From Neorhizobium petrolearium (GTDB taxonomy: Bacteria; Pseudomonadota; Alphaproteobacteria; Rhizobiales; Rhizobiaceae): a stretch of DNA of 64,000 bases. The position numbers and the translations under genes are program-made. Under the pieces are notes generated by a model, which saw only the letters and a list, made by a program, of their open reading frames with translations, made no database searches and was not told the origin of the DNA. The stretch is taken from the NCBI RefSeq assembly GCF_017873175.1, contig NZ_JAGGJW010000002.1:372001-436000 (forward strand), given 5' to 3'. Within the stretch, counting starts at the first letter, position 1. The number at the start of each line of letters is the position of its first letter. Shown here one piece after another: positions 35,353 to 60,544 of the stretch.

Positions 35353-35368
35353 TGCCGCGTCCTCCTGA

Positions 35369-36524: not shown

Positions 36525-36537
36525 TTAATCTTCATTT

Positions 36538-42413: not shown

Positions 42414-42526
42414 CGCAGATGCTCCTCGTTTCTTTTCACCCGCCTCTTCACGCTGGCTTGCGCCGGTAGCAAAATAGGATAACATGAACTCAGGGCCCGA
42501 TTATCAAAAAGTTCAGAATCGAACCG

Positions 42527-43513: not shown

Positions 43514-43526
43514 GGGAGGCAAAGCA

Positions 43527-44423
43527 ATGGGCCGGAAAACCATTCTTCATATGCTCACGCCGTTGAGACAGATGAGCCCCTTCGACGTCAACATGGCTCT
43601 TGATGCGGGTTATGATCATGTCATTCCCTACACGGATGTGGCGCTCGCAGACGTGACCGGCCTCGTTCAGGATGCGATCTTTTCGCGCCCACCGGACGCC
43701 GGTGTCGCCACCGGTGTTTTCATTGCCGGGCGAGATACTGTCCTGGCGCTCGACATGATCGATGCCGCGAGAGCGGCAATGGTGCCTCCCTTCGAAATTT
43801 CGGTTTTTGCCGATCCCGCCGGTTCGTTCACGACGGCTGCGGCAATGGCGGCCAAGGTCGAGGCGGCGCTCAAAAAACTGCATGATCGAAGCCTTGCCGG
43901 AACGAAAGTGACGATTTTCGGAGCGACCGGCGTCGTCGGTTATTGCACGGCGGTGATATCCGCCAAGGAAGGCGCAGACGTCACGCTGGCGGGCCACGAC
44001 GGAACGAGCCGTGTTGAAAAGATAGCGGAAGCCATCAAGGCCCGTTTTGGCGTCACGGTGACGGCGGCCGATGGCTCGACGGACGAGAAAAAGACAGGTC
44101 TGTTGCAGGAGACAGAGGTTGTCCTGGCCGCAGCAAAAGCCGGCGTCAGAGTAATTTCGGTCGGGCAACTTCACTCGGCGACGCGTCTGCTCATCGCAGC
44201 GGACGTCAATGCTGTACCACCCTCGGGTATCGAAGGCCTGGCGGCCAACGCAAAGGCCGATAAACTGGGCGAGACATCGGCGATCGGCATCGGTGCTCTC
44301 ACCATCGGAAACCTTAAATACAAGACTCAATCCGGCCTGTTCAAACAGATGATCGGCGCCGAAAAACCGGTCATCTACGATTTCCAGGATGCTTTCGCCC
44401 TTGCCCGCAGCATCGAAAAATAG
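43527..44423 (+). CDS. mtdB: Methylene-H4MPT dehydrogenase
   Basis: A 298-residue NAD(P)-dependent dehydrogenase of the H4MPT pathway. The start KTILHMLTPLRQMSPFDVNMALDAGYD and the Rossmann motif FGATGVVGYCTAV near residue 130 are typical of MtdB; the cluster setting fits MtdB rather than MtdA. ATG at 43527 has GGGGAGG 9 bases upstream and follows mptG by 13 bases; the frame is open through mptG but not used. Confidence 0.95.
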   Translation: MGRKTILHMLTPLRQMSPFDVNMALDAGYDHVIPYTDVALADVTGLVQDAIFSRPPDAGVATGVFIAGRDTVLALDMIDAARAAMVPPFEISVFADPAGSFTTAAAMAAKVEAALKKLHDRSLAGTKVTIFGATGVVGYCTAVISAKEGADVTLAGHDGTSRVEKIAEAIKARFGVTVTAADGSTDEKKTGLLQETEVVLAAAKAGVRVISVGQLHSATRLLIAADVNAVPPSGIEGLAANAKADKLGETSAIGIGALTIGNLKYKTQSGLFKQMIGAEKPVIYDFQDAFALARSIEK

Positions 44424-45525: not shown

Positions 45526-46481
45526 TGAACGGCAAAGCCCATCTCAATAGAAGTGCCCAGCGCATCGTAGATCAGATCATTGCCGACGGAGAGCGGCTCG
45601 GCATTACCCATACCCGCGGTGCGCTCGGAGAACATCTGATCGATGCCGGCGCGGACAGTCCCGGCGGGCTCGAAGTAGGGCTGCGGATGACGGAAATCTG
45701 CATGGGCGGCTTGGGGACCGTCTCCATGGCACTCGATCGCCACAATGAACAGTGGCCGCTAACCGTCACAGTCCATTCCTCGCAGCCGGTCCTCGCCTGC
45801 CTCGGCAGCCAGTACGCCGGCTGGCGCCTCTCGCACGAGAAATATTTCGCCATGGGCTCCGGTCCTGCGCGTCTTCTGGCCCGGGTGGAGCCGCTGTTCG
45901 AGGAGATCGCTTATACCGAAACCGACGCCTCCACTTCGGTTCTCGTGCTGGAAACGCACAAGCCGCCGCCATCCGCTGTGGTCGAGAAGGTGGCGGTAGC
46001 GACAGGGCTGGCGCCTGAGGCCCTGACTTTCATCTATGCCCCGACACAAAGCCTTGCCGGTTCCGTGCAGATCATCGGCCGCTCCCTGGAGGTCGCCCTT
46101 CACAAGGCGCACAGCCTCCACTTCCCCCTGGACAACATCATCGACGGGGCGGGATGCTCGCCGGTTCCGGCTCCCCATCCCGATTTCCTGCAGGCCATGG
46201 GCCGGACGAACGATGCCATCATCTATGGTGGGCTGGTGCAGCTGTTCGTTCGTGGCAGTGCATCCGCTGCACGAGAACTCGCCGAGCAACTGCCGAGCAA
46301 CAGGTCACGCGACTACGGGCAGCCTTTCGCGGAAACCTTCAAGAAATTCAACGGCGACTTCTACGCGATCGATCCACATCTCTTCAGCCCGGCCGAAGTG
46401 ATTGTCACGGCCGTCGAAACAGGCGAGACTTTTCGTGCCGGTGAATGGAACAGGCAGATGCTGGAGCAATCTCTTGGCTGA
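45522..46481 (+). CDS. mch: Methenyl-H4MPT cyclohydrolase
   Basis: A 319-residue enzyme opening methenyl-H4MPT to formyl-H4MPT. Conserved parts include GGLEVGLRMTEICMGGLGTVS near residue 50, VTVHSSQPVLACLGSQYAGW near 85 and KYFAMGSGPARLLA near 107. ATG at 45522 has AAGGAG 8 bases upstream and overlaps the ATP-grasp stop. Expected length. Confidence 0.97.
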   Translation: MMNGKAHLNRSAQRIVDQIIADGERLGITHTRGALGEHLIDAGADSPGGLEVGLRMTEICMGGLGTVSMALDRHNEQWPLTVTVHSSQPVLACLGSQYAGWRLSHEKYFAMGSGPARLLARVEPLFEEIAYTETDASTSVLVLETHKPPPSAVVEKVAVATGLAPEALTFIYAPTQSLAGSVQIIGRSLEVALHKAHSLHFPLDNIIDGAGCSPVPAPHPDFLQAMGRTNDAIIYGGLVQLFVRGSASAARELAEQLPSNRSRDYGQPFAETFKKFNGDFYAIDPHLFSPAEVIVTAVETGETFRAGEWNRQMLEQSLG

Positions 46482-47406
46482 GCAGATAGCAATTTCCGAT
46501 AAAATTCTGATCGTTTCCGACAAGCCGGACGGCCAGGTGAAACAGCTAAGGCGCTCCTTCAAGGAACTCGGTTCCGAGGCAATCTTCTGCCCACTTGCCG
46601 ATATCGCGTTCGATACGCGCTACCCTTCGGGCATCGCCATCCCGACACTCGACGGCGCTCTTCCGGCTGGCGTGATCGTCCGCTCCATCTCCGCCGGCAC
46701 TTTCGAAGCGGTCACGCGCCGCCTCGGCATCCTGCACGCCCTCACCCATCTCGGCGTGCCGGTCTGGAATTCGGCCAAGGCGATCGAGCGTTGCGTCGAC
46801 AAATCGACAACCACTTTTTTTCTCGCGAATGCCGGCATCCCGACGCCGCAGACCTTCGCCGTGGAAGGTCCCCACAATGCCAAAGCCATCGTCGAGCGCG
46901 AGGTGTCCGACGGTCCGCTCGTGCTGAAACCGCTCTTCGGCTCGCAGGGGCGCGGAATCAGACTCATCCGCTCGATCGAGGACCTGCCCGATCCTGATGA
47001 TGTCGATAACGTCTATTACCTGCAGCGTCTGGTCGTGAGGAATGGGCCACCCTACCGGGACTACAGGATATTCGTCAGCAACGGCGAAATCCTCGGCATG
47101 ATGGGACGTTGCGCCGACGGCTGGATCACCAATATCGCACGCGGAGCAAAGGCGGAATCTGTGACAGGGCCATTGCGCCAGAAGCTCGAAGAACTCGCGC
47201 TTGCCGCGACTTCGGCCATCGGCACCGACTTTGCCGGCATCGACATCGTTCAAGGATGCGAAGGCAATCTCCTCGTGCTGGAAGTCAACAGCATGCCCGC
47301 CTGGACCGGTCTGCAATCCGTCGTTCCCGTCCGCATCTCCGATTGCATCGCTCGGGCGATGAGCGAGCTTCTCAATCCTGAAATCAAGGAAAGACCTGCC
47401 GCATGA
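46474..47406 (+). CDS. RimK-type ATP-grasp ligase (MptN-like)
   Basis: A 310-residue ATP-grasp of the RimK group. Substrate/ATP features: VDKSTTTFFLANAGIPTPQT near residue 110, PLFGSQGRGIRLI near 150 and LLVLEVNSMPAWTGLQ near 270. I propose a TTG start at 46474, 7 bases after GGAG and overlapping mch by 8 bases; no ATG gives a sensible N-terminus except well inside mch. The archaeal relative MptN adds glutamate to H4MPT, so a glutamate ligase acting on H4MPT or methylofuran is plausible. Confidence 0.88.
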   Translation: MAEQIAISDKILIVSDKPDGQVKQLRRSFKELGSEAIFCPLADIAFDTRYPSGIAIPTLDGALPAGVIVRSISAGTFEAVTRRLGILHALTHLGVPVWNSAKAIERCVDKSTTTFFLANAGIPTPQTFAVEGPHNAKAIVEREVSDGPLVLKPLFGSQGRGIRLIRSIEDLPDPDDVDNVYYLQRLVVRNGPPYRDYRIFVSNGEILGMMGRCADGWITNIARGAKAESVTGPLRQKLEELALAATSAIGTDFAGIDIVQGCEGNLLVLEVNSMPAWTGLQSVVPVRISDCIARAMSELLNPEIKERPAA

Positions 47407-48266
47407 CGCTGACGCGGCAGCAGATCATGACGGCATATCTCGATGCTTGCCTAGCGGAGATCGAGGCCTTGAAACCCGGCAATGTCCATCGCTTTGCCGA
47501 TGGCCACCGGATGACCGCGAACCAGTTCATTGAAAGCGCCGAGGTCAGCGCGCCGCTGGTTTCCGAACCAGGCACATCGGTCGGTCGGCGCGTTCTCGGC
47601 GCCATGACGGCGACGTGCAAAAAGGTGGGAACGAACACCAATCTCGGCATCCTCCTGCTCTGCGCACCGCTCGCCAAGGCCGCCGAAAGTAGCACGACAA
47701 ATTTCCGCAGGGATCTTATCCGCACATTGGACGAGATGGATGCTGAGGATGCGCGCGACGTCTTCGCCGCCATCCGGCTCACCAATCCGGGAGGGCTGGG
47801 CAACGCTGAAGAACAGGATGTCCGGGAAGAACCGACAGTGTCCCTCATTGAGGCCATGGGCATGGCCGCCGACCGCGACATGATCGCGAGACAATATACG
47901 ACCGGCTTTGCGGACATATTCACCGGCGGCCTGTCTGCCTGGACGGGAGCGACAGACAGGGGCGAAGAGGACATGTGGCCGACGATCTTCATCTACCTTC
48001 ATTTCCTGTCGTCATTTCCCGACAGTCATGTCGGGCGCAAGTACGGCATCGATCTCGCCGAAGAAATCCGGAAAGAAGCGGAAATGATATGCCGCACGGT
48101 AACAGACGAGATGAACCTATCGAGGCGGGAAAAGGTCCTGCTGGCCTTCGACAAACGGCTCAAGGACATGGATATCAATCCCGGAACCTCTGCCGATCTC
48201 ACCGTAGCCACGCTTTTTGTCTGCAACATGAACTTCGGCTTGCATAATCCCGACTTAAATGCTTGA
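47403..48266 (+). CDS. CitG-like triphosphoribosyl-dephospho-CoA synthase family protein
   Basis: A 287-residue protein resembling CitG/MdcB (triphosphoribosyl-dephospho-CoA synthase). Family features are the LDACLAEIEALKPGNVHRF start, KKVGTNTNLGILLLCAPLAKA near residue 75 and LRLTNPGGLGNAEEQDV near 125. It overlaps the RimK-like gene by four bases and ends the plus-strand operon. No citrate or malonate lyase is nearby, so a ribosyl-transfer step in H4MPT synthesis is more likely than acyl-carrier prosthetic-group synthesis. Confidence 0.9.
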   Translation: MTLTRQQIMTAYLDACLAEIEALKPGNVHRFADGHRMTANQFIESAEVSAPLVSEPGTSVGRRVLGAMTATCKKVGTNTNLGILLLCAPLAKAAESSTTNFRRDLIRTLDEMDAEDARDVFAAIRLTNPGGLGNAEEQDVREEPTVSLIEAMGMAADRDMIARQYTTGFADIFTGGLSAWTGATDRGEEDMWPTIFIYLHFLSSFPDSHVGRKYGIDLAEEIRKEAEMICRTVTDEMNLSRREKVLLAFDKRLKDMDINPGTSADLTVATLFVCNMNFGLHNPDLNA

Positions 48267-48428
48267 ATTTGATTGGCGAACAAATCTTACTCGCTGCTAT
48301 CTGGCCAACCGACCCAGTCAAAGGGTGCTGCGAACAAGGATAGCTGTCCATCGAGCGCGTGTCTCGTGTGGTACGGCTTCTTTGGACGAACGCATTTTTG
48401 ACCATACGGTACAAGGGAGGAATTGGCC

Positions 48429-48935
48429 GTGGCAAAGATTAGCAAGGTAATGGTTGGTGAGTCTCTCGTTGGTGAGGGAAATGAAGTCGCTCATATCGAT
48501 CTTCTGATCGGACCGCGCGGAAGTGCTGTGGAAACGGCATTCTGCAACGCACTCACGAACAACAAGGACGGGTTTACATCGCTGCTGGCGGTCATCGCGC
48601 CGAACCTGGCATGCAAGCCTAATACGATATTGTTCAACAAGGTCACCATCAAGGGTGCAAAACAGGCCGTGCAAATGTTCGGCCCGGCACAGCATGCAGT
48701 GGCAAAGGCAGTACAGGACAGCGTTGCCGAAGGCATCATCCCAGCGGAAGAGGCAGATGACGTCTTCATCTGCGTCGGCGTCTTCATCCATTGGGAGGCC
48801 GAGGACGATGCCAAGATCCAGGACTATAACTACCGGGCAACGAAGGAAGCGATCGAACGCGCCGTAACGGGCAAACCGACCGCGGCGGAAGCAACCGCTC
48901 AGCGGGACACGGTCAAGCATCCTTTCAGCGCTTAG
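48429..48935 (+). CDS. fae: Formaldehyde-activating enzyme
   Basis: A 168-residue enzyme that condenses formaldehyde with H4MPT. It is highly conserved: [23 protein letters not shown] near residue 9 (with the catalytic His in AHIDL), [29 protein letters not shown] and [20 protein letters not shown] start at 48429 gives [10 protein letters not shown], matching known Fae N-termini, with GGAGG 8 bases upstream; the TTG at 48423 is too close to that box. It has its own upstream region of 162 bases. Confidence 0.97.
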
Positions 48936-48961
48936 ACAAGCAGCAACCCCGCACAGAGCGA

Positions 48962-48983
48962 GCCGCCCGTGGAAACAGGCGGC
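48962..48983. terminator. Hairpin downstream of fae
   Basis: A perfect 6-bp GC stem (GCCGCC / GGCGGC) with a 10-base loop, 27 bases after the fae stop. Only a short CTGTTG follows, so it may be a weak terminator between convergent fae and the HisA-like gene. Confidence 0.45.
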
Positions 48984-49188
48984 CTGTTGCGCCGGTTGTC
49001 GAGGCTTCTAGGCTTCAGCAGCGCGCCGTCTTCAAGCGCGAACCGCTGAGGATGGCAACGCTTCGGGTTCGTATCGAAAGAATGGAGCGGGAGGTTGAGC
49101 ATGCGCTCATCCCCGCTCCACAATCAAAGCCATATTGAGAGGCTGTGTACCCGAGAGAAGAGGCAAAAACTTCTTCTCTCGGATATAT

Positions 49189-49890
49189 TTATTTGTCCAT
49201 GAAAGCGGAGATTTCCGCCCCGTCGAGCTCACCGCTATGCAACGAGGTCGCAACGAGAGCGCCTGCAATACCCATTCCGTACAGCCGTTCCAGGTCATCC
49301 ACGTTGCGGACACCGCCCGCCGCGATGATTTCACGGTTTCCGGAGGCATCCTTGATGGCCTGCAGACGATCGAAATCGGGTCCGCGGCGCGCTCCCACCT
49401 TGTCGAGGGTCATGACAATCACCCGTTTTGGCCAAAGGTGAGGCTGCGAAAGGATGGACGGAGGTCCCAGGAAGGCACCGCCACGAAAATCGAGAGAGAG
49501 GATCAGTCTCGGATGCGAGCCGAACGCGCCGAGAACATCCGTGTCAGCCTGGCTTTCCGAGCCAAGAACCGCGAACGTCTGCGAATCGGCAAGCACCGCT
49601 CCGACGGCCTTCGCCTCTCGAAAGCCGGCATCGAGCCAGACATCTGGCTTCGGCCGCAGAAGAAACAGAGGGTCGGCGGTCGCGGAAGGGCTCGAGCCCT
49701 TCTCGATTGCATCGAGATCGGCCACATAGAAAACCGGAAACGGATGGATTCGGCGCAATCCTTCGGCGACGCTTTCGATCGTCGGCGTCGGGCTGAGTGG
49801 CGTCTCAATGGGCTTATAGCTCTCGCGCATGCCCATCTGCGCGCGCACCACAAGGCCGTCTTTGACGTCGAGAACTGGAATGATAAGCAA
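49189..49890 (-). CDS. HisA/HisF-like TIM-barrel protein of the H4MPT cluster
   Basis: A 233-residue (beta-alpha)8 barrel. D8 (IPVLDVKDG) and the Asp in LSLDFRGG near residue 135 match the two catalytic Asp of HisA. The C-terminal phosphate loop IIAAGGVRNVDDLERLYGMGIAGALVAT is intact, but the N-terminal half reads WLDAGFREA where HisA has a glycine-rich phosphate loop. So it is likely not a ProFAR isomerase; a related rearrangement on a mono-phosphorylated substrate is plausible. The start is TTG at 49890 with GAGG 8 bases upstream. Such genes recur in bacterial H4MPT clusters. Confidence 0.85.
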   Translation of the reverse strand: MLIIPVLDVKDGLVVRAQMGMRESYKPIETPLSPTPTIESVAEGLRRIHPFPVFYVADLDAIEKGSSPSATADPLFLLRPKPDVWLDAGFREAKAVGAVLADSQTFAVLGSESQADTDVLGAFGSHPRLILSLDFRGGAFLGPPSILSQPHLWPKRVIVMTLDKVGARRGPDFDRLQAIKDASGNREIIAAGGVRNVDDLERLYGMGIAGALVATSLHSGELDGAEISAFMDK

Positions 49891-49921
49891 TGATCAAACC
49901 TCGGCAGAAACGATGACTCCC

Positions 49922-50989
49922 ATGAAAGCCGGAACTGCGGCGGAAGAAAAGGAAACAATTATCGGCTGGGACATCGGCGGCGCGCATTTGAAGATGGCGC
50001 GGGCCGAACAAGGCCAGATTACGCTTGCCACGACCCTCAAGGCATCGATGTGGCTCGGGCTTGACCAGGTGCGCGAGGCGCTGAATCGGTTGCGACCGCT
50101 TTTTCAAAGCAATGCCACCCATGTCTTCACGATGACAGGCGAGCTGTCGGATGGCTTTCCGTCACGAGAAGACGGTATTCGCGGTATCCTAGACTTCATC
50201 GATACAGAATTCGGCCGCGACAGTGTCCGTATCTATGCCGGCCGTGCGGGCTTTGTCGATCTTTCCCGTGCCTACGATCTCGGCCCCGACATCGCCTCGG
50301 CCAATTGGCATGCAACGGCCGAATTGAGTGCGAGGACGAAGACGGACGGCCTGTTCGTCGACATGGGGTCCACAACCACCGACATCATTGCGTTCCAGAA
50401 TGGAAAGCTTCGCAACGCGGGTTATTCCGACGCGGAGCGCTTGTTGACCGGCGAGCTCGTCTATACCGGCTTCACACGTTCCGCGCTGATCGGAATAGCC
50501 GAACGGGTTCCTGTGCGCGGCACGATGACGCCGCTGATGAACGAATACTTCGCCAATACCGCCGATCTGGGGCGCATTCTCGGAACTCTGGATGAGGCGG
50601 ATGATCACTATCCGGCCGCCGACCGCAGAGCCAAGTCGCTTGCCGGCTCCATCGGGCGCCTCGCCCGCATGGTCGGCCGCGACAGCACCGATCTCGACGA
50701 TGGCGAATGGATCGATATCGCCCGCTGGTTCAGCGAGCATCAGCTGCGCATGATCTATGACGGCGCATTCATGGTCGCCGGCAATGCCCGGCTGAACCCG
50801 GCCGCTCCCATCGTGGGAGCCGGGATCGGCCGCCCGCAGATCATGCAGCTCGCCAGACGCCTGGAGCGGCCCTATGTCGATTTCGGCTCCCTCATCGCGG
50901 CATCCTCGCAGGAAGCTCGGGACCACGCCAGCAAGGCAGCACCTGCCGCCGCCGTTGCCCTGCTCTGGTCCGGACGCGAAAAGCCATAA
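49922..50989 (+). CDS. MfnF-like methylofuran biosynthesis protein
   Basis: A 355-residue ASKHA-fold (hydantoinase/sugar-kinase-like) protein resembling archaeal MfnF. Motifs: IIGWDIGGAHLKMARAE near the start, FVDMGSTTTDIIAF near residue 140 and VGAGIGRPQIMQLARRL near 295. In archaea MfnF joins the aminomethylfuran diphosphate to the tyramine-containing part of methanofuran. Starts at 49880, 49913 or 49922 are possible and none has a clear site; 49922 gives the shortest tail. The start region nearly touches the divergent HisA-like gene. Confidence 0.82.
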   Translation: MKAGTAAEEKETIIGWDIGGAHLKMARAEQGQITLATTLKASMWLGLDQVREALNRLRPLFQSNATHVFTMTGELSDGFPSREDGIRGILDFIDTEFGRDSVRIYAGRAGFVDLSRAYDLGPDIASANWHATAELSARTKTDGLFVDMGSTTTDIIAFQNGKLRNAGYSDAERLLTGELVYTGFTRSALIGIAERVPVRGTMTPLMNEYFANTADLGRILGTLDEADDHYPAADRRAKSLAGSIGRLARMVGRDSTDLDDGEWIDIARWFSEHQLRMIYDGAFMVAGNARLNPAAPIVGAGIGRPQIMQLARRLERPYVDFGSLIAASSQEARDHASKAAPAAAVALLWSGREKP

Positions 50990-51025
50990 GGACGGACTTT
51001 TGCTCGCGACCTCCCGACAAACGCT

Positions 51026-51589
51026 TCAATGCGTGGCACGGTGGGCGTTCACCCGTTCCATCAGCCAATCCCAGGCCTGCCGCTCGTCCGAGCCGGCCGT
51101 CTTCTCGATCGCGATCGTCAGATAAGCGATTTCGGATTCGATCTTTTCCTTCGGCAGCATTTGCAGCCTGCTCACCAGGATCGCAAGTTCCAGGACGGCC
51201 GCCTTGGCGCGGTTCATTCCCGTGAAAGGTGCGTGCGTGGCTTCGGCAACGACCTTGCAGAAATAGCGGGGGCGTATCTCGTCCTCTTTGACGGAGGCGA
51301 CCTGGAGGACGGAATGACTGAGCGCCGCCTGCAGACGCGGGACCGGGCAGCCTTCCACCGCAACGACTGGCCAGTCCCGCCGCCCGGTGAGGCAGCCTGC
51401 GAAAATCCGCATGTCGTCCGTATAATTGGCGATGGCGAAAGGCACGGCAGTGAGGTTTTCAAGCGTCGCGGAGGGCCGGAACGGCGCGATAACCCAGCCG
51501 TCATCCTGTGCGATGATGCCGAGCGGGGCGATATGCACGCGCCCTTCGGCGCTCACCGTCGTCACGATCGTTTCCCGAATATAGGTCAT
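51026..51589 (-). CDS. DUF447 family flavoprotein-like protein
   Basis: A 187-residue protein matching the DUF447 family (flavin-reductase-like barrel). Recognisable parts are MTYIRETIVTTVSAEGRVHIAPLGI, PFAIANYTDDMRIFAG near 55 and FTGMNRAKAAVLELAILVSRL near 115. ATG overlaps the stop of the DHPS-like gene. It is the last gene of the minus-strand set from 55322. The function is not known; FMN binding is likely by fold, and a reductive step in H4MPT cofactor synthesis would fit. Confidence 0.85.
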   Translation of the reverse strand: MTYIRETIVTTVSAEGRVHIAPLGIIAQDDGWVIAPFRPSATLENLTAVPFAIANYTDDMRIFAGCLTGRRDWPVVAVEGCPVPRLQAALSHSVLQVASVKEDEIRPRYFCKVVAEATHAPFTGMNRAKAAVLELAILVSRLQMLPKEKIESEIAYLTIAIEKTAGSDERQAWDWLMERVNAHRATH

Positions 51590-52983
51590 GAGCCTTCCTT
51601 CTTCGCCCGGAGCGTATGGCCGGCCTCGGCAAGTCGGGTGCGATCCTCGCTTGTTCGAGGACTCGCCACGCCCCAGGCGAGCGGCTCGTCCTGCGAATAG
51701 CGTTTGCCCAGCTTCCAGGCGATTTCCGCCTTCATCAGTTCCGCGCCAAGATAGAAGGCATGCGCACCATCCTGCGCAACATTGAGGGAAGGAAAGAGAT
51801 CGAAAGCATCCTTCGCCGTCCAATGCCCCTGATTACTGAAGACATGGATGCCGTCCGGAGCAGTCATGATCCGGAAATTGGCGTCGCGCACGGTCTCGGC
51901 CAGCGCATCGATATCGGCAAGGCTGCTGGCGAAGGGCGCGCGGTCGTGGATCTGCAGGAGACCGGCATCGTAGCCGCGCGGCAGCGCATGATCGTTCTTC
52001 GCGGCAAACATGATCCGGCGCGCCCGATCATGCTCCTCCACTGTGCGCACCGTATGCGGACTGACGTTGACGACCAGCACGTTGCCGATCGCAAGCTCGG
52101 AACAGAGGCCAGCAAGGATCGCTGTGACCCCTGATGAGTCCGCGTCCGTCAATTCGGTCAGATTTCCGGTGCCCATCATTATCTCGACATCCGGCCAGCG
52201 GCGTCGGGCCTCGATGAAGCGTCCCACGGAGGCTGCAAAGCCGAAATGGATCGGATCGAGAACCGGATCGGCGATGAAGGATATCCCGGCTTTCCGCGCT
52301 GCATCGATGGCACGCCCGAGGGAATCGAAATCTCCTGGCACCGCCGGAACGAGGATAGGCGTCACCTCGTGTCGGGTGGCGATGTCGATGGTCTTCTCAT
52401 TGAGGCTCAGGAGATAATCCACGCCAGAGCGTGCGGCGAGTTCCAGCTCGTCAGGGTTAGCCGAGTCGACACTGACGGAAAGTCCCTCGGCCTTGAGCCG
52501 CCCGATCGCCTCCGACAGATGGACAAAGGGCGTGTCGGGAAGACAGCCAAGGTCGATCACGTCCGCCCCGACAGATGCAAAGGCTTTGGCTCGTTGCAGC
52601 AGGTCATCCAGCGAAAGGGTCGATGCATCCACGATCTCGGCGAAAATGCGCATGTCGTGGCGCGAGAGGTCAGGCACCTTTCCGGCCCGACCAAGATAGG
52701 TGGGCAGGTCCGCAACCTCGTCCGGTCCACGGACGAAAGGGACGCCGAAGGTATCACTCAACCGCTCCAGATGCCCCCTGAAACGCCCGGGTAGCACGAC
52801 CCGGTCCGCCTTCAATGGACGAGGCAGGCGCCGGCTGACGATCTCCTCCGTCATCAGGGCGGCGACCTTCACGCCAATGTCGATGATCTCGTAAGTGAAT
52901 GGCGTCGCTCCCAGTCCGGCGAGAACGTTTTCGAGTCTGGTTTTTGCCAGGTGTCCGGTCAGGAAGACGAGATGCTCAGCCAC
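51586..52983 (-). CDS. DHPS-like (dihydropteroate synthase-like) protein of H4MPT synthesis
   Basis: A 465-residue protein whose middle, about residues 150-340, is a pterin-binding TIM barrel (DVIDLGCLPDTPF, SVDSANPDELELAARSGVDYLLSLNEK, IMMGTGNLTELTDADSSGV). The N-terminal 110 residues are an extra domain (LVFLTGHLAKTRLENVL) and about 120 residues follow the barrel. This matches the DHPS-like proteins that accompany archaeal and bacterial H4MPT genes, thought to couple the pterin to the ribofuranosyl-aminobenzene moiety. Overlaps both neighbours. Confidence 0.88.
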   Translation of the reverse strand: MAEHLVFLTGHLAKTRLENVLAGLGATPFTYEIIDIGVKVAALMTEEIVSRRLPRPLKADRVVLPGRFRGHLERLSDTFGVPFVRGPDEVADLPTYLGRAGKVPDLSRHDMRIFAEIVDASTLSLDDLLQRAKAFASVGADVIDLGCLPDTPFVHLSEAIGRLKAEGLSVSVDSANPDELELAARSGVDYLLSLNEKTIDIATRHEVTPILVPAVPGDFDSLGRAIDAARKAGISFIADPVLDPIHFGFAASVGRFIEARRRWPDVEIMMGTGNLTELTDADSSGVTAILAGLCSELAIGNVLVVNVSPHTVRTVEEHDRARRIMFAAKNDHALPRGYDAGLLQIHDRAPFASSLADIDALAETVRDANFRIMTAPDGIHVFSNQGHWTAKDAFDLFPSLNVAQDGAHAFYLGAELMKAEIAWKLGKRYSQDEPLAWGVASPRTSEDRTRLAEAGHTLRAKKEGS

Positions 52984-53527
52984 TGCTCTCGACCACTCCC
53001 TTCCGGCGCGCCACCGCCAGTTTCAGATCGGCAAAGGATTCGACGACTTCGGTGTATTCAAAGGCCTTGAGACGTTCGGTGTTCTCCAGATCGATCGGCC
53101 GGGGATAAACCTTCACCAATCCGTGCGGCGCCATCGTCTCCAGTTCGGGCGCAGTGTCGCATGCGAAGACGATCGACGGCAGGCGGCATTTGCCGGCCTG
53201 CGCATAGACGTTCGTGGCGATCGTATCGGAGATGCCGGCCACGCATTTGGCGACAGTATTCGACGTTGCCGGAGCAATCACGACGCTATGGTAGACGCCG
53301 TGATAGAATTCGCCAACGGGGATCGCGCTCGCCGTCTTGTCGTGCAGCACGCGCGTCGTGTCCGAAAAATCGAGCTTCAGCCCGTACATCCTCAGAACCT
53401 CGTCCGCCGCCTTCGTCACGAAGACGTCGCAATGGTCGAGCGATCGGATCAATTCGAAACATTCGACAAAGAAATGACCCGATCCGGTCAGAACCCAGGC
53501 CCAGCGCGGCGTATGAAGCCGCGTCAT
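52976..53527 (-). CDS. AfpA/DmrB-like flavoprotein (dihydromethanopterin reductase)
   Basis: A 183-residue flavoprotein of the Dfp/AfpA type. FMN-site features: WVLTGSGHFFVECFELI near residue 11, VVIAPATSNTVAKCVAGISDTIATN near 83 and IVFACDT near 120. In Methanosarcina the homologue DmrB reduces dihydromethanopterin to H4MPT, and bacterial clusters carry this gene (archaeal flavoprotein-like, afpA). A last-step reductase role is therefore likely. Overlaps the DHPS-like gene by 8 bases. Confidence 0.88.
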   Translation of the reverse strand: MTRLHTPRWAWVLTGSGHFFVECFELIRSLDHCDVFVTKAADEVLRMYGLKLDFSDTTRVLHDKTASAIPVGEFYHGVYHSVVIAPATSNTVAKCVAGISDTIATNVYAQAGKCRLPSIVFACDTAPELETMAPHGLVKVYPRPIDLENTERLKAFEYTEVVESFADLKLAVARRKGVVESSG

Positions 53528-54156
53528 CCGCGAGCTTCCTCTCCGGCCGCCTCGTGCATCCTCACGCGGCTTCCCGGTATGCGAGTCATAGGCAACTCCG
53601 CCAGCTGCGAACGCAGTGACGATGGTCCGGCAATGTACAAGCTTGTCTCCTCCCCAAGCAGCCCCGGCAGCATGGCATCCACCACGCCCTTGTCAACCAG
53701 CGCTTGCAAGTCCCGGGCACCCGAATCGACCTGCTTGCACAGCAGGAGATGTCGGCTGCCGATCTGCCTGCACAGCCAGGCGGCAAGCGAGTCGGACGTG
53801 ACGTCCCAGGATTGCGCGATATCGGCACTGCGTGTCATCTGCGAAGGAAGCCATACCGGCACGCCGCCTTCAGCAAGGATCGTTTCGAGATCATGGAGCG
53901 AACGGGCCCGCTGAAAGCGCGGATGCCGTTCGGCGATCACGATGCCGAACTGCTCCATTGCCAGAATGGCCATTTCATGTGCGGCGGCGTCGGAAAAGTG
54001 CATCTCCTTTTGCGAGAAGCGCACTTGATCTGCAAACGGCCCACCGCCGGGGACGATCAGCAAAGGCAAGGTCGCCGATGCCAGTACGGCAATCCATTGT
54101 TCCATCTCGATGCGGCCGGCCGTGCTTCCTCCAAGCTTGACCACCAGCGGCGTCAT
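53524..54156 (-). CDS. MfnE-like kinase of methylofuran synthesis
   Basis: A 210-residue amino acid kinase-fold protein. It shows VVKLGGSTAG at the start, VPGGGPFADQVR near residue 36, and SWDVTSDSLAAWLCRQIG near 115, the pattern of the aspartokinase superfamily. Archaeal MfnE phosphorylates aminomethylfuran phosphate to the diphosphate used by MfnF. Overlaps AfpA and the MfnB fusion by four bases each. Confidence 0.85.
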   Translation of the reverse strand: MTPLVVKLGGSTAGRIEMEQWIAVLASATLPLLIVPGGGPFADQVRFSQKEMHFSDAAAHEMAILAMEQFGIVIAERHPRFQRARSLHDLETILAEGGVPVWLPSQMTRSADIAQSWDVTSDSLAAWLCRQIGSRHLLLCKQVDSGARDLQALVDKGVVDAMLPGLLGEETSLYIAGPSSLRSQLAELPMTRIPGSRVRMHEAAGEEARG

Positions 54157-55322
54157 ACCACGTTCCTTCCTCCGTCACCGGACGCTACGACCCGAAGCGG
54201 GTTCGACGACCGGGCACTTTCCCTTTTCCGCTCGATCTGCACTCCGACGCCACCTGGCCCAAGTTCCAGCTTCTCCGCCCGCACGACCACACGGGCTACA
54301 CGCGGATTTTCGAGAATGAAAGCGGCTATCTGCTCGACAAGCGTTTCAACCAGGTCGACATGACCTCGTCCGACAATCGCCCGGATGCCGTCCATGATGA
54401 GGTCGTAGGATACGATATGATGCATGTCCTTCGGATCGCGGGTTACGCGAAGTACATCCGCCGTCACGTCGAACCGCACCTTCTGAGGCCTGCCGTGTTC
54501 GAAACTGTAGGCCCCGATATGCATCGGCAGGACGAAATCCCGCACGAAAATCTGATCCGCGCCAAGGTCCTCGTCTGCCGAGCTGGGAAAATATCCCCGC
54601 GCCGCCAGCAGCTTGAGGTCGACGCCGGAAGGCTTTTCGGCGGGCCGGTCTCCGGGAATCAGAGCGCGGATTTTGGCAGTCGCTTCGGCGTCGATATCGG
54701 CATTCCTGGACAAGCCTTCGCAGAGTGCCCCGCGGAAGCCAAGGTAATCCGGCTTGCTTGGCAAGAGCCGCGGAATGTCCGGCGCTTCAAGCGATCCCGC
54801 AAGACCGACCATCAATCCGTGCCGGTGCCCTTCGGCCACGAAATCCGGAATGTGATCAGGCGGCATATGATCCAGCAATCGCCCTTTCGATTTGTCGTCG
54901 GTATCCAGCATGATGCCGTAGAAGCCGGCTTTGGCGAACGATGTCATGACGTTCTCCTCATATCGATGATCGGCAAAAAGGACGGCGATCAGCTTCTTCC
55001 GGCCAGCAATATCGGCCAAAGCCTCCACACCTGCCGCAATGGGAGAGGACGGAAGAAATCCTATCTTGATGAAATCCACCCCTGCCGAGGCTATCTCCTC
55101 GACCTTTGACCGCAGCGCCGCGGGATCGCCGAAGAACTCTCCGCAAGCGGCACTGACGAGCCTTTTGCCGGAGACGAAACCGACCACATCGACGATGTGC
55201 CGGATATCTGCCGGCCCAAGCGCGCCGCGCGCCGGATCCTTGAGATCAATGATATCCGCTCCCGCCTGCAGAGCAATCTCCGCTTCCTGGCGATTTTGAA
55301 CACTGGCCAGCATCAACGTCAT
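54153..55322 (-). CDS. MfnB-dihydroneopterin aldolase fusion
   Basis: A 389-residue two-domain protein. Residues 1 to about 235 match MfnB, which makes (5-formylfuran-3-yl)methyl phosphate from glyceraldehyde 3-phosphate: LMLASVQNRQEAEIALQAGADIIDLKDP, the Lys in DFIKIGF, and PDYLGFRGALC. Residues about 265-370 match FolB dihydroneopterin aldolase (DQIFVRDFVLPMHIGAYSFEHGRPQKVRFDVTA, then VDLVETLVEQIAAFILEN). So one polypeptide may serve both furan and pterin arms. ATG at 55322 has GAGAGG upstream and heads the operon. Confidence 0.88.
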   Translation of the reverse strand: MTLMLASVQNRQEAEIALQAGADIIDLKDPARGALGPADIRHIVDVVGFVSGKRLVSAACGEFFGDPAALRSKVEEIASAGVDFIKIGFLPSSPIAAGVEALADIAGRKKLIAVLFADHRYEENVMTSFAKAGFYGIMLDTDDKSKGRLLDHMPPDHIPDFVAEGHRHGLMVGLAGSLEAPDIPRLLPSKPDYLGFRGALCEGLSRNADIDAEATAKIRALIPGDRPAEKPSGVDLKLLAARGYFPSSADEDLGADQIFVRDFVLPMHIGAYSFEHGRPQKVRFDVTADVLRVTRDPKDMHHIVSYDLIMDGIRAIVGRGHVDLVETLVEQIAAFILENPRVARVVVRAEKLELGPGGVGVQIERKRESARSSNPLRVVASGDGGRNVV

Positions 55323-55474
55323 AGGACGCCTCTCCGCGTACCGCATTTCTCACGGCAAGGACGAGAAAAGCTGAGTACAAGTATTGAGTTTATCGGGGAT
55401 TGGGCTACAAACATAGTGGGCACCTCATCTGTACAGCGCATCTGCCTTCGCGGAAGGCCGGCGCAAGGCGTGGT

Positions 55475-56704
55475 ATGACCATGAAGAGTACGGTGCCTAA
55501 TACTCTTATATTTTTATTCGCTTGTTTTTTGCTCCTCGTCAATGCGCCGCAATCGATGGCGCAGCAAAACCCGGCCACGAAGCCCGCAACCGAGATCCGG
55601 ATAGGCTATATTAGAGCTTATGAGCCACAACTGGCCCTTTCGGTTTTGGACATCCCTCCGGCGGATGAAGGTGTCGCGGGGGCGAAGGTTGCTATCAACG
55701 ACAACAACACGACCGGCAGATTTCTCGGGCAATCCTTCACTCTGGACGTGGTTCAGACGAAGCGGGATGAGGATGTTGTCCCCGCATTCCGGGAAATGCT
55801 GACCCGGGGCGAGAAATATGTGCTGACCGACATCTCGGCCAGGCAATTGCTCTCCATCGCCGATCTCGCCAAGGAAAACGGCGTGCTTCTTTTCAACGTA
55901 GGATCGACGGACGATATCCTGCGTGAACAGGAATGCCGCTCCAACGTCTTCCACACCGCTCCGACCAGGAGCATGCTTGCCGATGGCCTGGCTCAGTATC
56001 TGATCTGGAAGCAATGGCGCACCTGGGTCCTTCTCTATGGTTCCCACGAACCGGATCAGCTTTTCGCCGACGCGATCCGGCGGTCGGCGAAGCGCTTCGG
56101 CGCTAAGATTGTCGAGGAACGGCTCTACAAGGATACGGGCACAGCCCGCCGCACCGACAGCGGCGTCGTTCAGGTCCAACGGCAGATGCCGGTCTTCACC
56201 CAGAACCTGCCGGCACATGACGTGGTGATCGTCGCGGATGAAAGCGAAGTCTTTGGCAGCTATGTTCCCTACCGGACCTGGGATCCGAGGCCGGTCGCCG
56301 GAACAGCCGGCCTCATCCCATCCTCCTGGCATCCGGCCAGCGAGCAATGGGGCGGTTCACAGATCCAGAACCGCTTCGTGAAAGCCACCGGCCGTCGCAT
56401 GCTGGGCAAGGACATGCAGGCTTGGACGGCAGCGCGTATCCTCGGCGAAGCCGCGACACGGACCAACAGCAGTGACCCTGCGAAGATTGAAGCCTTTATA
56501 AAGGACGAGAATTTCTCACTGGCCGCCTTCAAGGGACAGAAAGTGACCTTCCGCCGATGGAACTGGCAGCTTCGCCAGCCAATCTTCCTCGGCGACGGCC
56601 GAGGCGTGATCTCCACCTCACCACAAGAGGGATTTCTTCATCAGTTTTCTGAACTCGATACATTGGGAGTAGATCAGCCGGAGACGGCCTGCAAACTGAA
56701 TTGA
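55475..56704 (+). CDS. Substrate-binding protein of PQQ-dehydrogenase-associated ABC system
   Basis: A 409-residue periplasmic binding protein of the branched-chain amino acid type. A signal peptide ends near residue 29 (SMAQ). It has IRIGYIRAYEPQLALSVLDIPPADEGVAGAKVAINDNNTTGRFLGQ, and a DVVIVADESEVFGSYVPYRTWDPRPVAGTAGL stretch near 235. This is the PQQ_ABC_bind family next to PQQ-dependent alcohol dehydrogenase systems. It starts a six-gene plus-strand operon. In P. putida the related Ped ABC system has been implicated in growth at low lanthanide. The ligand is not proven. Confidence 0.9.
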   Translation: MTMKSTVPNTLIFLFACFLLLVNAPQSMAQQNPATKPATEIRIGYIRAYEPQLALSVLDIPPADEGVAGAKVAINDNNTTGRFLGQSFTLDVVQTKRDEDVVPAFREMLTRGEKYVLTDISARQLLSIADLAKENGVLLFNVGSTDDILREQECRSNVFHTAPTRSMLADGLAQYLIWKQWRTWVLLYGSHEPDQLFADAIRRSAKRFGAKIVEERLYKDTGTARRTDSGVVQVQRQMPVFTQNLPAHDVVIVADESEVFGSYVPYRTWDPRPVAGTAGLIPSSWHPASEQWGGSQIQNRFVKATGRRMLGKDMQAWTAARILGEAATRTNSSDPAKIEAFIKDENFSLAAFKGQKVTFRRWNWQLRQPIFLGDGRGVISTSPQEGFLHQFSELDTLGVDQPETACKLN

Positions 56705-56725
56705 TAACGGGAATGGGAGGAGAGA

Positions 56726-57700
56726 ATGCGCAGATATATTTACCTGCTCGCAGGGACTTTCGCGGCCGTCATCCACACTGGGCCTGTTTCGGCCAATGCC
56801 GTCTATGTTTCGAACGAGAAGGACAATACCGTCACGGTCGTCGACTCCAAGACGATGGAAGTAACCAAGACGATTGAGGTGGGACAGAGACCGCGGGGGA
56901 TCACGATCTCCCATGACGGGAAGCATCTTTACGTCTGCGCCAGCGACGACGATACGGTCGAGATCATCGACACCGCGACTCATGAGATTACCGGAACGCT
57001 GCCATCCGGTCCGGATCCTGAACTCTTCGTGCTCTCTCCGGACGGCAAGACCCTTTATGTCGCCAATGAGGACGACAATCTCGTCACCGTCATCGACGTC
57101 GACAAGAAAAGCGTGATCTCCGAGATACCGGTCGGCGTGGAGCCTGAGGGGATGGGCATCAGCCCCGATGGCAAGACGATGGTGAACACGTCCGAAACCA
57201 CCAACATGGCGCATTTCATCGACACGTCGACCCATGAGATCGTGGCGAACGTGCTCGTTGATTCACGTCCGCGTTTCGCCGAGTTCAAGCCGGACGGATC
57301 GCAGGTCTGGATATCCGCGGAAATCGGCGGCACGATCTCCGTCATCGACAACGCCTCCAGAGAGGTCGTCAAGAAGATCACATTCGAAATCCAGGGCTTA
57401 CGCTCGGAAGCGATACAACCCGTGGGCGTGCGAATCACGGCAGATGGCAAGAAGGCCTATGTTGCCCTCGGGCCAGCGAACCGAGTGGCGGTCATCAACA
57501 CGGAAACCTACGAGGTCGAGAAATACATCCTCGTGGGCCAGCGCGTCTGGCAATTGGCGTTCACGCCGGACGGCAAGAACCTGATCAGCACCAACGGCCT
57601 TTCGAACGATATCACCTTCATCGACACGGAGAGCGATGAACCGATCAAGTCCGTCACCGTCGGGGCGCTGCCCTGGGGTGTGACGGTCGCACCCGACTGA
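56726..57700 (+). CDS. YVTN beta-propeller protein of the PQQ-associated ABC operon
   Basis: A 324-residue periplasmic seven-bladed propeller with signal peptide (cleavage near residue 25). The YVTN-type repeat is seen several times: YVSNEKDNTVTVVDSKT, YVCASDDDTVEIIDTAT, YVANEDDNLVTVIDVDK, and VALGPANRVAVINTET. Many blades have Asp-rich loops. This is the PQQ_ABC_repeats family. It may bind PQQ enzyme partners or metal. Twenty bases separate it from the binding-protein gene, with GGGAGGAG before the ATG. Confidence 0.9.
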   Translation: MRRYIYLLAGTFAAVIHTGPVSANAVYVSNEKDNTVTVVDSKTMEVTKTIEVGQRPRGITISHDGKHLYVCASDDDTVEIIDTATHEITGTLPSGPDPELFVLSPDGKTLYVANEDDNLVTVIDVDKKSVISEIPVGVEPEGMGISPDGKTMVNTSETTNMAHFIDTSTHEIVANVLVDSRPRFAEFKPDGSQVWISAEIGGTISVIDNASREVVKKITFEIQGLRSEAIQPVGVRITADGKKAYVALGPANRVAVINTETYEVEKYILVGQRVWQLAFTPDGKNLISTNGLSNDITFIDTESDEPIKSVTVGALPWGVTVAPD

Positions 57701-57734
57701 TCCATATTTCGATTTTTTTCAAAGGGAGGAAGAC

Positions 57735-58202
57735 ATGTCGAAATTCACAGCCATTGCCGTTGCCGCACTCATCGGCGCTCTTTCGATGCAGAATCAGGCC
57801 TTCGCCCAGTCCGCCGACAAGGACGATGATGATGATGATGCGCCCAAAGTCACACGGGCCAGCCAGAATGTCCCGGAACTGATCCTCGGATCGAAGGACG
57901 ACAATTTCGCTGTGAACCAGAAGGACTTCGAACTTATTGCGGGACAGGGCTACCGCTGGAAAATCACGTCCGCAGCCGGCCTCGAATACAAATTCATGAC
58001 CGATCTGTTCCGTAACGTCTGGATGAACCAGATCGTCATCAACGATCTCGAAGTCCACATGAACGGCGCGCCTGCATGGCTGGAATTCGATTCCGAAGGA
58101 ACGATCAACGTCCAGTTCACGACGGTGCGGCCAGGCGAATACACGTGGTCCGTTCCCGATCTGGCGGGCAAAGGCATGACGGGCAAGATCATCATCAAGT
58201 AG
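57735..58202 (+). CDS. Small periplasmic protein with an Asp run
   Basis: A 155-residue protein with a signal peptide ending near residue 25 (FAQS). The mature N-terminus is SADKDDDDDDAPKV, six consecutive Asp, followed by a compact beta-rich domain with NVPELILGSKDDNF and PGEYTWSVPDLAGKGMTGKI near the end, cupredoxin-like in feel but without Cu ligands I can identify. I do not recognise the family. Its operon position suggests a role with the PQQ/lanthanide transport system, perhaps binding a hard metal ion through the Asp run. Confidence 0.82.
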   Translation: MSKFTAIAVAALIGALSMQNQAFAQSADKDDDDDDAPKVTRASQNVPELILGSKDDNFAVNQKDFELIAGQGYRWKITSAAGLEYKFMTDLFRNVWMNQIVINDLEVHMNGAPAWLEFDSEGTINVQFTTVRPGEYTWSVPDLAGKGMTGKIIIK

Positions 58203-58251
58203 CCATCCCAGGCGCGGCCCTTGAGGCGCGCCGCTTGTGAAAGGCCATCCG

Positions 58252-59058
58252 ATGAAGCTGCAGTCCCGTTTAACCGAAACATCGAAGAACGAGGAGAGAG
58301 CGGCGCCCGCCGCTCTCGAACTCGCATCCGTCAGCTATAACTACGGGCAACGAAAGGCGCTCGACAATATCTCGTTTTCCATAGAGCCCTCGCGGTTCAC
58401 CGTGCTCCTTGGGCTCAATGGCGCGGGCAAGACGACGCTCTTCTCGCTCGTCAGCCATCTTTTCTCACCACGGACGGGTCGCATTCGCGTCTTCGGTCAG
58501 GATATCAACCGCAATTCCGGTCCGGCGCTCAGGCGCCTCGGCATCGTGTTCCAGGCCCGCACCCTCGATCTCGATCTCAGCGTCCGGCAAAATCTTCTCT
58601 ATCACGCTGCCCTGCACGGCATTGGAACGCGGGTGGCGCGGCAGCGGATCGATGAGCTCCTTCAATCCATCGACATGACCGACCGTATCGAGGAAAAGGT
58701 GCGCGGCCTTTCCGGTGGACAGATCAGGCGGGTCGAGATCATTCGCGCCCTGTTGCATCGCCCCTCCCTGCTGCTGCTCGACGAAGCAACGGTGGGACTC
58801 GACATCAAGTCGCGCGCGACCATACTGAAAGACATCCGCGCGCTCGTTCAACAGCAAGGGATCAGCGTGCTCTGGGCAACCCATCTGATCGATGAGGTCG
58901 GCCAGGCGGATCAGGTTCTCGTTCTCGACCAGGGAAGGCTCGTCGCCGACGGCCAGGTGTCGACCATTCTTTCTGAGACAGGCACGGAGACAATCAACCA
59001 GGCATTCTCAAAACTAACCGGCATCGCGGATTTGAATGTTCGGGGAGGAAGAACATGA
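58252..59058 (+). CDS. ATP-binding protein of the PQQ-associated ABC system
   Basis: A 268-residue ABC-2-type ATPase. Walker A is LGLNGAGKTTLFSLV near residue 57, signature LSGGQIRRVEIIRALLH near 152, and Walker B LLLLDEATVGLDIKSR; VLWATHLIDEV holds the switch His. The ATG at 58252 has AAGG upstream; a GTG at 58237 is possible. It overlaps the permease gene by four bases (ATGA). The family is PQQ_ABC_ATP. Confidence 0.92.
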   Translation: MKLQSRLTETSKNEERAAPAALELASVSYNYGQRKALDNISFSIEPSRFTVLLGLNGAGKTTLFSLVSHLFSPRTGRIRVFGQDINRNSGPALRRLGIVFQARTLDLDLSVRQNLLYHAALHGIGTRVARQRIDELLQSIDMTDRIEEKVRGLSGGQIRRVEIIRALLHRPSLLLLDEATVGLDIKSRATILKDIRALVQQQGISVLWATHLIDEVGQADQVLVLDQGRLVADGQVSTILSETGTETINQAFSKLTGIADLNVRGGRT

Positions 59059-59924
59059 CCGATGCAGCCGGAACGTTCGCGGGTTCACCGTCGGAGAAAT
59101 GGAAAGGCTTCACCCCGATCCAGTATCTCGTCTGTCTCAAGGGTATTCTCCAACGAGAATGGCTGCGATACCTTTCGCAGAAGGAACGCTTCGTTTCCTC
59201 CCTTGTTCGTCCCCTGCTCTGGCTCTTCATTTTCGCGGCCGGTTTCCGGCAGGTGCTCGGTGTTTCAATCATACCACCGTACGAGACCTATGTTCTCTAC
59301 GAGGTCTACATCACGCCGGGATTGTGCGGGATGATCCTCCTCTTCAGCGGCATGCAGTCCTCACTGTCGATGGTCTATGACCGCGAGATGGGCAACATGC
59401 GCATCCTGCTCGTCAGTCCCTTTCCCCGCTGGTACCTGCTGGTCGCCAAGCTTCTGGCGGGCGTCGCCGTTTCCCTCCTCCAGGTCTATGCCTTTCTGGC
59501 GATCGCCTGGTTCTGGGATGTCAAAGCGCCGGTCGTGGGTTATCTGCTGATCCTGCCTGCGCTCTTCTTCTCCGGATTGATGCTCGGAGCGCTCGGCATG
59601 CTGCTGTCCTCCCTCGTCAAGCAGTTGGAGAATTTTGCAGGCATCATGAACTTCGTGATCTTTCCCATGTATTTCGCCTCCTCGGCACTCTACCCGCTCT
59701 GGCGAGTGCAGGAAGCGAGCCCACTGCTCTATCAGATATGCCTCCTGAACCCGTTCACCTACGCGGTTGAGCTTATCCGTTTCGCTTTTTACGGCCGTAT
59801 TGAATGGACATCGCTGATCGTCGTGCTGGCCGTTACGCTCGCCCTGCTCGGCGGAGCTATTCTGGCTTATAATCCCGCACGCGGTCTCACTGTCCGCAAG
59901 CAGGATATGGGAGGAAACCAATGA
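59055..59924 (+). CDS. ABC-2 type permease of the PQQ-associated system
   Basis: A 289-residue membrane protein with six predicted segments, of the ABC-2 (exporter-type) permease family, near PedC-type alcohol ABC permeases. Features: ILQREWLRYLSQKERFVSSLVRPLLWLFIF near residue 34, YDREMGNMRILLVSPFPRWYLL near 110 and the LLSSLVKQLENFAGIMNFVIFPMYFASSALYPL region near 180. ABC-2 permeases usually export, so pairing with a binding protein is unusual. Confidence 0.92.
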   Translation: MTDAAGTFAGSPSEKWKGFTPIQYLVCLKGILQREWLRYLSQKERFVSSLVRPLLWLFIFAAGFRQVLGVSIIPPYETYVLYEVYITPGLCGMILLFSGMQSSLSMVYDREMGNMRILLVSPFPRWYLLVAKLLAGVAVSLLQVYAFLAIAWFWDVKAPVVGYLLILPALFFSGLMLGALGMLLSSLVKQLENFAGIMNFVIFPMYFASSALYPLWRVQEASPLLYQICLLNPFTYAVELIRFAFYGRIEWTSLIVVLAVTLALLGGAILAYNPARGLTVRKQDMGGNQ

Positions 59925-60544
59925 AGCGATATGTTCCTCTGATCGCAATGCTCGCCGCGCTATCGGCCACACCGACGGCCCTTGCCGCGGCAAATGTCGA
60001 TCCCGACTGGCCTTGCATTCAACGCAAAGTGCCCGAGATTTCGATCGGCCAGGTTTGGAACGGCGACGAGCTGCCCGAAACGGCCAAGCAATGGGACAAG
60101 GACCCTCAGGTGGCCGATCTCGCCGCCGAACTCGTCAAGCGCAGCAATCCGATCGAAAATGCTCGCAAGCAGGTTTCGGCTTATGCCGCGACCCTGCCGA
60201 AAGAGCAGGTGCGTGAAAAGCTGGAGCAACTTTTCATGGGGGTGTTCGACAGGATCAATATAGAGCGCGGCCAGATCATCTCAGGCATTGCACGCTATGC
60301 CGAAAAGCAAAGGCAGCTTGCGGCAGATGTCAGAAAGAAGGCCGCAGAAATCGACAGAATGCGAGCCGCAGCCGATACCGACCAGGCGGAGCTTGCCAGG
60401 CATGACCAACAGCTGACATGGGAGACGCGTATCTTCGAAGAGCGTGTCCAATCACTAACCTATGTCTGCGAAGTTCCGACGCTAATCGAGCAGCGGCTCT
60501 ACAGCATTTCAAAGATCATCGATGAGACGATGCAAAAGAACTGA
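59921..60544 (+). CDS. Periplasmic coiled-coil protein of the PQQ-associated ABC operon
   Basis: A 207-residue protein with signal peptide (residues 1-22, ALAA). The mature start has DPDWPCIQRKVPEISIGQVWNG, then long helices rich in Ala/Glu/Lys at about 65-195 (KQRQLAADVRKKAAEIDRMRAAADTDQAELARHDQQL), a likely coiled coil. Two Cys, in WPCI and YVCEV, could pair. Overlaps the permease by four bases. I do not recognise a characterised family; position implies it works with the transporter. Confidence 0.85.
   Translation: MKRYVPLIAMLAALSATPTALAAANVDPDWPCIQRKVPEISIGQVWNGDELPETAKQWDKDPQVADLAAELVKRSNPIENARKQVSAYAATLPKEQVREKLEQLFMGVFDRINIERGQIISGIARYAEKQRQLAADVRKKAAEIDRMRAAADTDQAELARHDQQLTWETRIFEERVQSLTYVCEVPTLIEQRLYSISKIIDETMQKN

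Follow-up and report, generated by a model that had tools for sequence, protein, structure and literature searches.

A rhizobial lutABCEFG operon and its probable role in lanthanide import for XoxF

Background

What does a six-gene operon carry, and in which direction, when it encodes both a solute-binding protein and a permease of an exporter type? The question is raised by positions 55475-60544 of a 64,000-nucleotide stretch of Neorhizobium petrolearium DNA (contig NZ_JAGGJW010000002.1; the whole stretch is called the window below), from an assembly of 6.97 Mb in 64 contigs. The joint presence of an ABC-2 fold (ABC, ATP-binding cassette) and a binding protein is unusual. A preliminary description, made from the DNA letters, had read the six genes as one unit for handling lanthanide or pyrroloquinoline quinone (PQQ). 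Here we conclude that they constitute a lutABCEFG operon of the Lut/Ped kind, which probably takes lanthanide ions (free or chelated) out of the periplasm into the cytoplasm and so supports the methanol dehydrogenase XoxF of the same island.

Results and discussion

Identity of the six genes

The six open reading frames (ORFs) are all open on the + strand and lie head to tail, with gaps of 21, 34, and 49 nt followed by two 4-base ATGA overlaps. This tight spacing leads us to read them as one operon, and the earlier observation of a six-gene unit is confirmed. Promoter and terminator scans gave results at chance level. Families were assigned with NCBIfam profiles and their curated cut-offs, and with Pfam. 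The features are as follows.

55475-56704, + strand: lutA (pedA1), periplasmic solute-binding protein; TIGR03863, 485 bits (cut-off 414); Peripla_BP_6
56726-57700, + strand: lutB (pedA2), YVTN propeller; TIGR03866, 517 bits (cut-off 287)
57735-58202, + strand: lutC, small secreted protein with a predicted cupredoxin fold that lacks the copper Cys
57822-57839, + strand: tract of six Asp in LutC, residues 30-35, after an apparent signal peptide
58252-59058, + strand: lutE (pedB), ABC ATPase; TIGR03864, 336 bits (cut-off 302); the ORF opens at GTG 58237
59055-59924, + strand: lutF (pedC), ABC-2 type permease; TIGR03861, 395 bits (cut-off 241); PF01061
59921-60544, + strand: lutG, secreted helical protein with conserved C32 and C183

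Genes 1, 2, 4, and 5 thus score above the cut-offs of the families that had been named for them from the letters, and the six consecutive Asp residues bear out the description of gene 3 as an Asp-rich small protein. For genes 3 and 6, no NCBIfam or Pfam family scored above its cut-off; these two were identified by comparison with 24 named Methylorubrum and Methylobacterium contigs, taken from 80 that had been fetched with lanmodulin (LanM). The gene order lutA-B-C-E-F-G is the same in those lut loci, except that lutD is missing in the window, and identity to the 24 loci is 43-46% for lutA and 36-44% for lutG. In locus L027, the gene-3 homologue is followed by a small gene, and the gene-6 homologue by genes for a TonB-type receptor and LanM. 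META1_p1781 is described as lutD, encoding a lanthanide binder (PMC9260416), and a table of Methylorubrum locus numbers lists lutB under 1779 and lutE under 1782 (PMC7391723). The order in L027 together with these numbers makes gene 3 LutC, the small gene LutD, and gene 6 LutG. Judged by this correspondence of sequence and order, gene 3 is LutC and the window has no LutD. We take LutD to be the protein called landiscernin.

Lanthanide or PQQ

To which enzymes the transporter belongs was examined in 101 genomes of the family and 289 genomes of the class (including that of the window), taken as Rhizobiaceae and Alphaproteobacteria as inferred from the named homologues. PQQ-dependent alcohol dehydrogenases (ADHs) were sorted by the lanthanide Asp, which we take to be the second D of DYD in XoxF. 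This extra Asp is reported to be essential for lanthanide binding (PMC12628762, PMC11996626).

In the family, the permease exceeded its cut-off in 31 of 101 genomes. An over-cut-off ADH occurred in 32 genomes, namely 29 of the 31 with the permease and 3 of the 70 without it. The lanthanide Asp was present in such an enzyme in 29/31 permease-positive genomes vs 0/70 others (Fisher p 3e-23), and Thr occupies that position in all three genomes that have an over-cut-off ADH but lack the permease. These motifs were read in 41 regions, including that of the window, out of 44 matches; the other three are sub-cut-off enzymes (G021:C2, G043:C37, and G078). XoxF relatives of at least 73% identity (21 genomes) and LutC profile matches (28 genomes) fell entirely within the 31 permease-positive genomes; among the LutC matches, that in G067 is limited to 20 residues at the end of a contig, and those in G058 and G087 are on a different contig from the permease.

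In the class, the permease was found in 40 of 289 genomes and an ADH match at E 1e-100 or better in 71. The Asp was read in 33/36 permease-positive ADH genomes vs 12/35 permease-negative ones (Fisher p 4e-7), and in the remaining 23 of these 35 every enzyme read lacks the Asp. Up to four ADH candidates were scored per genome; the reading covered every listed match in the 35 genomes without the permease, and some second-rank paralogues of the permease-positive genomes fall outside the motif counts. Counted from the enzyme side, genomes in which every detected PQQ-ADH lacks the Asp are permease-free in 3/3 cases in the family and 23/26 in the class.

The transporter therefore tracks lanthanide-type enzymes and not PQQ enzymes in general; this is the criterion that the surveys provide, and it speaks against PQQ as the cargo. 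The expected co-occurrence with PQQ enzymes holds in both surveys, and that with XoxF relatives in the family. As to the two kinds of cargo first proposed, the lanthanide half is supported by the family models, the Methylorubrum correspondence, and the co-occurrence; the PQQ half is disfavored. That the operon imports or redistributes PQQ could be argued from the NCBIfam names, which link the families to PQQ-ADH systems, from pqqE, a pqqD-containing ORF, and pqqB in the same window, and from three class genomes with the permease and Thr-type ADHs only. We regard this as very improbable, given the permease-free genomes with Thr-type or non-Asp enzymes just described and the report that loss of the transporter in Pseudomonas putida leaves growth with the Ca enzyme PedE unaffected (PMC6839425).

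In a further survey of 70 loci, one (L135, which is genome G078) carries on contig C15 a distant permease that scores 110 bits, below the cut-off. A sub-cut-off PQQ-ADH lies some 2 kb away, and the two may be a diverged relative of the transporter-enzyme pair.

Direction of transport

Methylorubrum lutA, lutE, and lutF mutants have been described as forming periplasmic La deposits (PMC7391723), and loss of lutE or lutF as stopping La-dependent methanol growth until suppressors arise. Deletion of pedA1A2BC in P. putida is reported to raise the La requirement about 100-fold (PMC6839425). These phenotypes argue for import, and it is by analogy with these relatives that LutA, LutE, and LutF of the window would form an importer. 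In such a scheme LutB and LutC would bind lanthanide and pass it on in the periplasm, and LutA would deliver it to LutF; for all the likeness of the ABC-2 fold to exporters, entry would be driven by LutE.

Could the permease instead export a lanthanophore or chelating peptide, with the binding protein as a sensor or docking part and lanthanide entering indirectly? The fold itself would suit this, and the next best families, DrrA/DrrB (a daunorubicin exporter) and the also listed NodI/NodJ, are in keeping with it. A conceptual model in a methanotroph survey has an ABC transporter secreting lanthanide-chelating peptides (PMC12482762). The lack of a detected LutH in the 31 permease-positive family genomes and the co-occurrence of a canonical NMT1-type importer with lut (see below) would also fit. 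The La that builds up in the periplasm of the Methylorubrum mutants is, in contrast, what is expected of a block after outer-membrane entry (PMC7391723), and we consider export improbable.

Several points nevertheless weigh against lanthanide import for XoxF. The permease has an exporter-type fold. In the family, G077 has the permease with no ADH match (93% complete) and G058 with only a sub-cut-off ADH, which has the Asp. Among the class genomes with the permease, G223, G226, and G327 have Thr-only ADHs, and G224, G230, G255, and G291 have no ADH match; conversely, 12 of the 35 permease-negative ADH genomes carry the lanthanide Asp. With up to four candidates scored per class genome, further ADHs may be missed, and the Fisher values overstate independence since the genomes are related. 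Lastly, no LutH, LutD, or LanM was found, so that the system differs from that of Methylorubrum.

In the 31 permease-positive family genomes, including that of the window, lutH was not detected at E 1e-10 (the control G383 was found), nor in any of the 101 genomes at 1e-50, and lutD was not detected in the same 31 genomes at a threshold of E 0.01, at which the control G383 gave a match of 1e-22. A lanM search of the window genome, run without a positive-control genome, gave no match at 1e-6; weak lanM matches of 28-48% identity, several across a stop, occurred in 13 of 101 family genomes. Lut in this family is thus a reduced form, which is a new observation. For P. putida, the outer-membrane step is stated in print to be unknown (PMC12997753).

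LutC

The predicted model of LutC is a cupredoxin fold, whose nearest solved relative is AcoP, a copper cupredoxin. The signal peptide is apparent by eye only, and the Asp tract comes after it. A LutC profile searched by sequence against solved structures returned only trypanothione reductases at E about 0.5. Named homologues come from Rhizobium, Neorhizobium, and relatives, and some bear the database names copper-binding protein or plastocyanin.

These names, the fold, and the copper bound by AcoP would suit an ordinary copper cupredoxin that transfers electrons near XoxF. Its Asp tract would then be incidental low-complexity sequence, in line with its variable length and its absence from many LutC. 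We find this unlikely. Cys is absent from the window LutC, from the last 115 residues of 120/120 listed homologues, and from the core of 57/61 LutC of the surveyed loci, so that the copper thiolate is missing. The plastocyanin model gives 16.4 bits (cut-off 87.9), and among the eight polar or aromatic residues that are best conserved, four (E84, E106, E117, and D119) are carboxylates. LutC may instead hold lanthanide through acidic side chains, to which rhizobial LutC would add its Asp tail. To recognize gene 3 as LutC, with a predicted cupredoxin fold without the copper Cys and often with an Asp tract, is new; searches confined to the open-access PMC literature listed no paper that describes LutC as a cupredoxin or reports a lanthanide protein rich in Asp.

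A run of at least three Asp occurs in the tail of 21/25 family-survey LutC vs 0/25 LutC from loci with lutD, and in 100 of 120 listed homologues. As a control of this measure, LutB was positive in 14/25 (its first 110 residues include a DDD in blade 2), LutA in 0/21, and LutG in 0/16. That the tail strictly replaces LutD found no support as a general rule: the tail is also missing in 17/39 LutC from loci without LutD (L024, L106, L109, L112, L114, L137, L155, L165, two in L169, and seven lutF-lutC-lutG loci). The Asp tail is thus mainly a trait of the window's family.

Variant arrangements were also seen. Seven loci from small class genomes of 1.2-2.5 Mb (L138, L139, L142, L150, L151, L154, and L158) have the order lutF-lutC-lutG, with LutC after the permease and no Asp tract. 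In a divergent lut type (L165 and L169-L173), the permease gene comes directly after lutB and lutA, and any lutE found stands ahead of lutB; L169 has two LutC-like genes near each other. LutC is present two or three times in genomes G057, G035, and G086, with the copies on separate contigs.

LutB, LutA, and LutG

In LutB, E31, E115, E157, and E199 occupy the same position in four blades, and each is kept in 70 of 71 LutB; these four conserved blade Glu are also new. When solved YVTN-type propellers (1l0q, 5c2v, 3bws, and 3vgz) were compared by eye at E31 and E115, the two of the four positions covered, 2 of 14 aligned residues were acidic; these two belong to a single weak segment of 3vgz (14.5 bits). 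The propeller AztD hands zinc to the ABC binding protein AztC (PMC6689063), and by analogy LutB may act on lanthanide as AztD does on zinc. LutB scored 20.9 bits against the AztD model NF038015 (cut-off 400); AztD would be a precedent for its role and not for family membership.

By sequence, the solved structures matched by LutA were leucine-type binding proteins, with E values no better than 0.006, and unrelated proteins. LutG is predicted to be almost entirely helical (pLDDT, the predicted local distance difference test score, 94.8), and both C32 and C183 are present in 34/34 LutG. Foldseek gave no LutG match at E 0.001 or better, and the rows ranked first, with E values no better than 0.04, were BAR domains and helical bundles.

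A second ABC transporter

The window encodes another ABC transporter, of canonical importer type, 0.8 kb from xoxF.

24216-26733, - strand: second ABC importer (Pfam) with ATPase, BPD_transp_1 permease, and NMT1-type binding protein

At E 1e-40 the NMT1-type binding protein occurs in 26 of 101 family genomes, one copy each: 25/31 permease-positive vs 1/70 permease-negative (G016; p 5e-17). In 15 of these 26 genomes, an ADH with the lanthanide Asp is encoded no more than 10 kb away. In the locus survey, binding-protein or permease homologues of at least 40% identity were found in 15 of 70 loci; none was found in 56 LanM loci without lut or in 24 LanM loci with lut, the latter indicating that Methylobacterium does not share the nearby arrangement. 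In three loci the set lies among the lut genes, between lutC and lutE in S. meliloti 1021 pSymB (L024) and L155, and between lutB and lutC in L109. The NMT1-type importer is therefore a recurring partner of lut, with a putative role in lanthanide use; this is new, and a search of the open-access PMC literature listed no paper linking the two.

From these parts we tentatively sketch a wider scheme, which we hold to be possible but doubtful. Alphaproteobacterial lanthanide use may involve two ABC transporters, Lut and an NMT1-type importer that retrieves a lanthanide ligand, and a relay of repurposed folds. In this relay the copper-free acidic cupredoxin LutC would, in rhizobia and with its Asp tail, take the place of LutD and lanmodulin, and the Glu-studded propeller LutB would load LutA as AztD loads AztC. 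The Asp tail, the Glu positions, and the second importer could explain how lanthanide is handled in bacteria that lack LutH, LutD, or lanmodulin. New lanthanide-binding folds, if confirmed, would be of interest for rare-earth separation.

The genomic island

The remaining features of the island are as follows.

16588-19722, - strand: pqqE, pqqD-containing ORF, and pqqB; TIGR02109, TIGR03859, and TIGR02108, all over cut-off
19974-21026, - strand: xoxJ; TIGR03871, 293 bits (cut-off 212), the match starting at residue 109, so that the true start is probably within the ORF
20836-21357, - strand: xoxG candidate, secreted c-type cytochrome (CHTCH), from the ORF and motif
21540-23441, - strand: xoxF, PQQ methanol dehydrogenase of lanthanide type; TIGR03075, 731 bits; WDYDG with the extra Asp
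27789-37482: Calvin-cycle set of rpe, cbbX, cbbL, fba, tkt, prk, fbp, and a cbbR-like gene, the CbbR-like regulator scoring below its cut-off
39224-55346: formylmethanofuran dehydrogenase A, a B-like protein, Mch, and methanopterin/methanofuran biosynthesis-like genes, beside lut

The ORF at 54153-55346 fuses MfnB-like and FolB-like domains. The lut operon and xoxF do share this rhizobial island, as first described. The placement of the genes beside PQQ enzymes holds at the scale of the island, where XoxF and PQQ genes are in the window, and not at that of the gene: XoxF is 32 kb away, outside the operon. With lut, XoxF, PQQ, Calvin-cycle, and tetrahydromethanopterin/methanofuran genes in one island, lanthanide-dependent methanol use becomes testable as a unit.

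Comparison with known systems

AztABCD resembles the operon in that a periplasmic beta-propeller is encoded with a metal ABC importer, as LutB is. LutB is far below the AztD cut-off, and the likeness is one of analogy only.

The pedA1A2BC genes of P. putida KT2440 share the binding protein, propeller, ATPase, and permease, and the passages on them report no LutH homologue (PMC12997753, PMC6839425). They differ in being four genes as printed, with no lutC or lutG, and in serving PedH, an ethanol dehydrogenase.

The lut cluster of M. extorquens AM1 (lutABCDEFGH and lanM) has the order lutA-B-C-E-F-G, and there also xoxF1 is described as encoded apart from lut (PMC7391723). The lut proteins of the window are 36-67% identical to those of the 24 named Methylorubrum/Methylobacterium loci, a comparison outside which AM1 itself lies. 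The differences are that no LutD, LutH, or LanM was found in the window genome, and that the Asp tract of LutC is missing in the 25 lutD-bearing loci.

Among rhizobia, homologues of lutABEFG have been reported in Bradyrhizobium and Sinorhizobium (PMC12628762). The passage concerned mentions neither lutC nor a second transporter; it shares with the window lutABEFG, XoxF together with the Calvin cycle, and no obvious LutH in S. meliloti 2011. The operon studied here is thus a member of the described Lut/Ped system rather than a new system, and represents a rhizobial variant of it.

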